DNA of 46,926 bases, taken from positions 1-46,926 of the IMG/VR virus record IMGVR_UViG_3300025949_000003. The stretch is one strand, 5' to 3'. Both the position numbers and the translations under genes were made by a program. This DNA is from a virus. Positions 36,578-45,620 of the stretch are shown piece after piece. The notes beneath the pieces are model-generated. The model saw only the letters and a program-made list of their open reading frames with translations. It had not been told where the DNA came from and searched no databases. Positions within the stretch are counted from its first letter, which is position 1. Each line of letters opens with the position of its first letter.

Positions 36578-36647
36578 GGTCGCGTAGCTTAATTGGAAAA
36601 GCGCGTGAGGCTAGCGTATGTTGCGGGTTCGAATCCCGTCGCGACCA
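36578..36647 (+). tRNA. tRNA-like gene with shortened anticodon arm
   Basis: Acceptor GGTCGCG pairs perfectly with CGCGACC (36640-36646), discriminator A. D arm GCTT/AAGC with GG loop, T arm GCGGG-TTCGAAT-CCCGT. Only 20 bases lie between D and T arms instead of about 23. The best 5-bp folding (CGTGA/GTATG) has a mismatch and would expose CTA; a 4-bp alternative leaves a 9-base loop. Anticodon therefore uncertain. Confidence 0.7.
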
Positions 36648-36918: not shown

Positions 36919-37001
36919 GCGCCGTCTGTCAGCATGGCCGAATCGGAATGAGTTGCCCCGACTGCCATCCAAAGCCACCGCCACCTCCGCCGAATAAGTA
37001 G
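36915..37001 (+). CDS. tiny Cys/His protein (28 aa)
   Basis: A 28-residue frame: CQHGRIGMSCPDCHP, then six prolines and NK. The spacing C-X-H ... C-X2-C-H could hold one zinc. ATG overlaps the previous stop (ATGA) and GGAAGGGTGG lies upstream. Short zinc proteins of this kind are frequent in actinophages. Small size keeps confidence moderate. Confidence 0.5.
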   Translation: MSAVCQHGRIGMSCPDCHPKPPPPPPNK

Positions 37002-37038
37002 CTTTCCTTAACGGGATGATGACGTGTTCCGTAATGCG

Positions 37039-37115
37039 GCCAAGCAGTGTTCCGGCCTAACGTCGAGTGGGGGCTAGAGTTCTTGCCCAAGTGTCGAGTA
37101 ATGAACGGCTTGGCA
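37039..37115 (+). ncRNA. possible degenerate tRNA-like element
   Basis: GCCAAGC (37039-37045) pairs perfectly with GCTTGGC (37108-37114), which is followed by A. The total length is that of a tRNA. A D-like arm TGTT/AACG with a GG-containing loop fits at 37048-37062. A T arm with TTCGA is missing, so this may be a decayed tRNA or chance. It ends six bases before the next tRNA-like gene. Confidence 0.35.
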
Positions 37116-37121
37116 CGCAAT

Positions 37122-37234
37122 GGTCCCGAAGTGTAAAAGGTTGCACGCAAGCGTTAACTACTTCCTCGTGTTATATCCGCGTTCACGATAATGCGGGGCG
37201 CTTGAAGTTGTCAGTTCGAGTCTGACCGGGGTCA
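37122..37234 (+). tRNA. tRNA-like gene with 40-base insertion in the anticodon loop
   Basis: All standard parts are present: acceptor GGTCCCG with CGGGGTC (7 pairs, two G-T), AA, D arm GTGT/GCAC with AAAAGGTT loop, G26, anticodon stem CAAGC/GCTTG, variable AAGTT, T arm GTCAG-TTCGAGT-CTGAC, discriminator A. The anticodon loop, 37153-37199, is 47 bases instead of 7. It could be an intron or a stable insertion. If the 5' side of the loop carries the anticodon it would be TAA; this is not certain. Confidence 0.65.
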
Positions 37235-37235
37235 C

Positions 37236-37460
37236 GTGACAATAGGATGGCTCATCTTCGATAATTTCGTGCTAGGCAATACTGTTGCTTATCTCGATTC
37301 TAGGGATGGATGGGGATCGGGTAAATGCGTTAAGAAAGGAGCTGAATACATCGAAAGTTACGGCGTTGTTATTGGCCTGATCGTTGGCTTTCTGGTCGAT
37401 CAGGCCATCTGGCCAAGCTATCTTGTGGCCATGCTTCAGAAGTCCGCGCGTCGAGAATAG
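37236..37460 (+). CDS. small membrane-associated protein starting one base after a tRNA-like gene
   Basis: A 74-residue frame from GTG 37236, one base beyond the tRNA-like discriminator, with the same flanking ACGTGA as the gene at 36649. A hydrophobic segment (YGVVIGLIVGFLVDQAIW) lies near the C-terminus. There is no ribosome-binding site. Real only if near-leaderless translation is used; otherwise noncoding. Confidence 0.4.
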   Translation: MTIGWLIFDNFVLGNTVAYLDSRDGWGSGKCVKKGAEYIESYGVVIGLIVGFLVDQAIWPSYLVAMLQKSARRE

Positions 37461-45545: not shown

Positions 45546-45620
45546 GCTCTCATAGTCCAATCGGTAGAGGCACCGGGCTTAAACCCCGGTAAAGTGTGGG
45601 TTCGAATCCCACTGGGAGCA
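45546..45620 (+). tRNA. tRNA with anticodon TAA (Leu by anticodon), short variable arm
   Basis: Acceptor GCTCTCA with TGGGAGC (one G-T), D arm GTCC/AGGC (last pair mismatched), anticodon stem CCGGG/CCCGG with loop CTTAAAC, six-base variable region, T arm GTGGG-TTCGAAT-CCCAC, discriminator A; CCA not encoded. The anticodon reads UUA. Leucine tRNAs normally have a long variable arm, absent here. TTA codons do occur in the following ATPase gene. Confidence 0.88.

Follow-up and report, generated by a model that had tools for sequence, protein, structure and literature searches.

What is a phage tRNA-like gene whose anticodon loop is 47 nt long? The question is raised by positions 37122-37234 of IMG/VR virus record IMGVR_UViG_3300025949_000003, whose 46,926 bases were taken whole and are referred to here as the window. 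A first-pass annotation had offered three readings of this locus: an unusual intron, a decayed gene, or a tRNA-shaped decoy. Our analysis suggests that the element is probably a maintained, non-decoding tRNA-like RNA, neither intron-bearing nor decayed.

The virus and its tRNA-like genes

The portal and helicase of the window are 33-40% identical to those of Cellulosimicrobium phage DS1, Arthrobacter phage Jasmine, and Microbacterium phage Shocker, and its lysin-like protein has an Rv2525c-like domain. Isolated relatives of this phage have actinobacterial hosts. An actinobacterial host is therefore likely for this actinophage-like virus, given the portal and helicase matches and the Rv2525c-like domain. 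A search of GenBank phages for nucleotide relatives gave no match. The + strand of the window has three cloverleafs. They are listed below with their parts and surroundings, where L237 is the sister phage contig IMGVR_UViG_3300025949_000004 (about 22 kb).

36578-36647, + strand: second tRNA-like cloverleaf; ARAGORN call tRNA-Ser(gct); stable anticodon stem absent
37122-37234, + strand: whole tRNA-like cloverleaf; discriminator A at 37234, CCA not encoded; homologue L237:8401-8509
37122-37128, + strand: 5' strand of the acceptor stem; partner 37227-37233; 7 bp including two G-U
37131-37146, + strand: D arm GTGT-AAAAGGTT-GCAC; 4-bp stem, GG loop, preceded by A8 A9
37148-37152, + strand: 5' strand of the anticodon stem, CAAGC; partner GCTTG at 37200-37204
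37153-37199, + strand: 47-nt loop or insert where a 7-nt anticodon loop is expected; unalignable with L237
37155-37173, + strand: predicted hairpin 1 of the insert, UAAC...GUUA (fold prediction)
37177-37196, + strand: predicted hairpin 2 of the insert, CCGCGUU-CACGAU-AAUGCGG (fold prediction)
37210-37226, + strand: T arm GTCAG-TTCGAGT-CTGAC, 5-bp stem (compared pair by pair with L237)
37236-37460, + strand: orphan 74-aa ORF; GTG start 1 nt past the discriminator; not in L237
37446-37470, + strand: terminator-like hairpin and T run; nearly the same sequence lies directly 3' of the L237 tRNA-like gene
45546-45620, + strand: ordinary tRNA-Leu(taa), the internal control; anticodon arm identical in L237

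A cloverleaf with an over-long anticodon loop

Inspection of the sequence placed the acceptor, D, anticodon, variable, and T parts and the discriminator A where the first-pass annotation had put them, and showed that the 47-base loop it had described is real. Like a canonical tRNA, the element has stems of 7, 4, 5, and 5 bp and a TTCRA T loop. It lacks a 7-nt anticodon loop with U33, as does its L237 homologue, where the loop is about 43 nt. The anticodon stem can be extended to 7 bp through 37153-37154 and 37198-37199, base 26 is G, and the variable region is AAGTT. In tRNAs, base 8 is almost universally U. Positions 8-9 of the element are AA, and A8 is also found in L237.

Standard searches passed over the element: it was not called by default ARAGORN, was missed by the Rfam tRNA model RF00005 at its gathering threshold, and gave no RF00005 match on 37000-37350 even at an E value of 10. 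With introns of 0-120 nt allowed, ARAGORN called it as "Pro(cgg), 38-nt intron", one of only 3 genes in the window. It was also recovered by our custom scan, whose criteria were a 7-bp acceptor, D and T arms, an anticodon stem, and a long middle. In 40 Markov shuffles of the window ARAGORN called nothing, and the custom scan under these criteria found 0 cloverleafs in 100 shuffles; the cloverleaf therefore exceeds chance expectation. The 403 calls made under the very permissive ARAGORN setting -ps60 were set aside.

Compensatory changes in a sister phage

L237 was found by a scan with a 14-sequence helicase alignment. A single-sequence helicase query of IMG/VR had returned no relative, whereas helicase alignment queries did. 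The L237 helicase is 86% identical to that of the window, and across much of the 22 kb of L237 most aligned DNA blocks share 72-88% identity. Its homologue of the element reads GACCCCG AA GTGT-AAAAGGAC-GCAC G CGAAA-insert in the 5' half and TTTCG AGGTT GTCGG-TTCGAGT-CCGGC CGGGGTC A in the 3' half. Among the 12 loci returned by a T-arm DNA pattern search, none was recognised as a further homologue, and a D-arm pattern run on IMG/VR and 84,980 prokaryote genomes returned the L237 contig again and otherwise unrelated matches.

All 22 cloverleaf pairs in the alignment are formed in both phages: 14 are unchanged, three carry one-sided changes that keep the pair (acceptor pairs 2 and 3 and one T-stem pair), and five differ on both sides. 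Four of the double-sided changes fall among the six pairs counted in the anticodon stem, the most diverged stem (CAAGCG/CGCTTG in the window, CGAAAC/GTTTCG in L237), and the fifth is in the T stem. When the partner strand was slid by 1-3 columns, every register gave 0 double-sided changes. The observed covariation score was reached by 11 of 500 letter shuffles, and we estimate a chance of roughly 0.4% that independent drift of the two strands would restore four Watson-Crick pairs. The D stem and A8 A9 are identical, and the D arm and T loop have hardly changed. The first-pass annotation had looked to covariation of the acceptor, D, and anticodon stems. With this one relative the acceptor and anticodon stems covary, as does the T stem, and the D stem, being unchanged, does not. 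Covariation thus appears strong for the anticodon stem, yet it is a single comparison of two sequences, because the collections searched held only one close homologue.

The loop inserts of the two phages could not be aligned. Their predicted arm plan is common to both, with a 7-bp closing stem and two hairpins, and the anticodon arm folds better than dinucleotide shuffles in each (z -2.5 and -3.5). Taken out of the stem, the inserts by themselves are marginal (0.05 and 0.045 as shuffle fractions). A tRNA-like gene is also present in a more distantly related member of the family, contig IMGVR_UViG_3300037483_000122 (loci L013 and L248). The anticodon loop of the L248 gene is a long predicted rod (shuffle fraction 0.004).

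The neighbouring cloverleaf and the downstream region

The cloverleaf at 36578-36647 has compensatory changes in its acceptor and T stems relative to L237, as read from the alignment. Its D-to-T-arm spacing is 20 nt vs 35 nt in the homologue L237:7997-8082, and neither middle folds better than shuffles. Two adjacent window genes, this one and the 37122-37234 element, thus appear from their sequences to have kept the tRNA body and lost decoding. Abnormal anticodon arms were noticed in several tRNA-likes of the family, namely window 36578-36647, L237:7997-8082, L275:3038-3106, and L055:1757-1823. The sequence C-RTGAATGA stands directly 3' of window 36578-36647 and L237:7997-8082.

In the window, C and then a GTG codon come directly after each of the two odd cloverleafs. 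After 37122-37234 this codon starts the 74-aa ORF, whose C-terminal half is hydrophobic by eye and for which a search found no relatives. A main role of the element as a leader for this ORF was rejected because L237 lacks the ORF. No start codon follows the L237 element directly; it sits about 7-10 nt upstream of its terminator hairpin. In the phage family of the window, an ORF start (at least 40 codons) lies 1-2 nt past 7 of 25 tRNA genes, a count that includes both window cloverleafs and comes from contigs that are not fully independent, compared to only 20 of 822 tRNA genes in the other viral contigs.

Over-long tRNA-like genes in other phages

The first-pass annotation had treated the feature as singular, and IMG/VR proved otherwise. 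A D-arm/T-arm pattern with an over-long gap matched at least 120 stretches, and in the custom scan of the collected loci at least 109 distinct tRNA-like genes had a long middle, 20 of them class-II-like among the matches listed. The remainder comprises at least 89 (about 90) phage tRNA-like genes. As in the window, 24 of the 89 among the matches listed have a 5-bp anticodon stem in the canonical register; shuffled middles gave 0.35 on average and 3 at most. In 23 of the same 89, again among the matches listed, a canonical arm is regained by one excision inside the stem, where 0.6 was expected (maximum 3).

Most of the genes with an insert in the stem share a core of ACG, TA, a 7-bp covarying hairpin, ACAGCAA, GC, a loop, and GCCGT, for which 28 sequences were aligned. 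In this CAGCAA class, an insert of about 38-48 nt lies within the 5' strand of the anticodon stem; once it is removed, the stem has 5 bp and the anticodon loop is canonical. A single phage can have several such genes, and those of isolates are annotated as tRNA-Undet and tRNA-Pseudo. Members of the class are found at the following positions.

Viral contigs: L228:1725-1837, L228:1986-2099, L174:4649-4765, L136:1483-1597, L115:9329-9444, and about 30 more
Isolates: MN695335.1, 220408-220517; MT161459.1, 11731-11844

The CAGCAA insert is possibly an undescribed class of small intron. Like the window element, these genes form a phage tRNA cloverleaf of about 113 nt with an over-long anticodon region. 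They differ in their insert, which interrupts the 5' strand of the anticodon stem, contains a conserved core, and precedes a canonical anticodon loop. We considered the window element as a member of this class (class B) and rejected it, as its stem is uninterrupted and CAGCAA is absent. The class model R1 scored it at 25.4 bits, like other tRNAs there (22.2 for the ordinary Leu tRNA). Neither the canonical-register long loops nor the CAGCAA class was found in the literature searched, which was mostly literature outside subscription.

Other unusual tRNA-likes were seen in the collected loci. L208, L131, and L184 form another apparent family of anticodon-loop inserts, with a motif like CATGGTGAAGGACCAAAYGC, and the anticodon stems of L208 and L131 show compensating differences by eye. 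In the tRNA-likes of L140, L156, and L135, the loop of an insert hairpin (AAAGG/AATGGA) can pair with downstream CCTTT/TCCATT, by eye a possible covarying pseudoknot. At least 15-20 phage tRNAs, including those in L104, L107, L120, L129, and L161, have a long variable arm and the anticodon loop CTTATAC (UAU), an unusual combination in which class II shape goes with an Ile-type anticodon. Three tRNAs of L127 (2224-2380, 3871-4023, and 5005-5159) carry inserts about 80 nt long, and T-arm-like motifs occur in two of these inserts.

Alternative explanations

If the insert were a short anticodon-loop intron removed by some route, a working, Pro-like tRNA would result. ARAGORN fits a 38-nt intron and reads the anticodon CGG, other cuts give TGG or GGG, and the separate CAGCAA class has inserts whose removal does restore canonical arms. 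We enumerated every contiguous excision that leaves a 5-bp stem and a 7-nt loop. Since the window loop starts with GT, some excisions yield U33 and R37, and several gave U33 with the anticodons GGG, TGG, TAG, and TAA. None of all the contiguous excisions listed for L237 gave U33, and the implied anticodons differ between the two phages. The intron reading raised by the first-pass annotation is therefore unsupported, as no excision yields a canonical anticodon arm conserved in both. The element also lacks the core and the insert position of the CAGCAA class, its sequence gave no match to an Rfam group I intron core, and no RNA ligase or RtcB was seen among the window proteins scanned. Because U33 is never restored in L237, while the tRNA-Leu(taa) arm is identical there, decoding constraint appears to be visible for tRNA-Leu(taa) and absent for the 37122-37234 element. 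We consider an intron here quite improbable.

A decaying tRNA gene, recognizable through recent descent, would account for the RF00005 score below threshold, the replacement of U8 by A8, and the loss of the anticodon region in two neighbouring cloverleafs. Decay would be expected to break stems, however, and all of these are paired in both phages, at about 72-88% identity of the alignable DNA, with four double-sided changes in the anticodon stem alone and a D arm and T loop that are nearly unchanged. Given the covariation with the relative in the acceptor, T, and anticodon stems, decay, too, is unlikely, contrary to what the first-pass annotation had allowed. The element could instead punctuate RNA processing, with RNase P and 3' tRNA nuclease excising the cloverleaf, which would release a downstream mRNA that has almost no leader (C-GTG) or set a transcript end. 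The start codons 1 nt past the discriminator of both odd cloverleafs, the excess of such starts in this family, and the terminator close behind the L237 element all fit this explanation. Against it, the downstream ORF and any following start codon are absent in L237, and neither RNase P nor RNase Z requires an anticodon stem preserved by compensatory change. Punctuation may arise as a by-product when tRNA-like genes are placed in compact operons; it is an unlikely account of the element itself and, as far as these sequences suggest, not its conserved role.

Discussion

In the reading that we prefer, a maintained, non-decoding tRNA-like RNA, the cloverleaf stems are maintained through compensatory changes in L237, and the anticodon loop has been swapped for a fast-changing, predicted two-hairpin sequence. 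Because the acceptor, D, and T parts are intact, and from how tRNA enzymes work, host RNase P, 3' tRNA nuclease, and CCA enzyme should trim the transcript, yielding a stable RNA some 113-116 nt long. This RNA would join the tRNA pool yet read no codons. Our preferred function, which is speculative and which we hold with low confidence, is that of a putative decoy that would occupy a host tRNA-acting enzyme, a tRNA-binding or tRNA-cleaving factor, and present no cleavable anticodon loop. The fast change of the distal arm would suit an arms race, or mere freedom from sequence constraint. More tentatively, many kinds of phage might encode such tRNA mimics against host tRNA-acting factors, each maintaining the cloverleaf and replacing the anticodon loop with structured, fast-changing extensions, with the window element as one member; we regard this generalization as doubtful.

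Such genes are dropped or mislabelled by standard tRNA finders, so a class of phage RNA may be going uncounted. Should they prove to be decoys, they would constitute RNA-based counter-defences to tRNA-targeting immunity; otherwise they would still be a tRNA shape kept without decoding. The conserved insert of about 40 nt in many phage tRNA genes could be a new type of small intron.

Among known systems, the group I introns of bacterial tRNA genes (reviewed in PMC3984707) also lie within the anticodon arm. The insert here differs from them in its length of about 43-47 nt, in giving no group I match, and in not being conserved between sister phages. The phage tRNAs that counter tRNA-cleaving defences are decoding tRNAs whose anticodon-loop bases are substituted or which are supplied in excess (PMC10264068, PMC11555353). 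They too are phage tRNA-like genes with an altered anticodon region, whereas the window element has no decodable loop at all. The YrlA bacterial Y RNAs, partners of Rsr/Ro60, are likewise non-decoding RNAs with a tRNA-like module. No Rsr protein was seen among the window proteins scanned, and the Rfam library, in which the inclusion of YrlA is unconfirmed, gave no YrlA match to the element at an E value of 10. It has been proposed that YrlA may inhibit an anticodon nuclease by competition (PMC7790460). In contrast to YrlA, the tRNA-like module in the window forms a full cloverleaf and has acceptor ends of its own.
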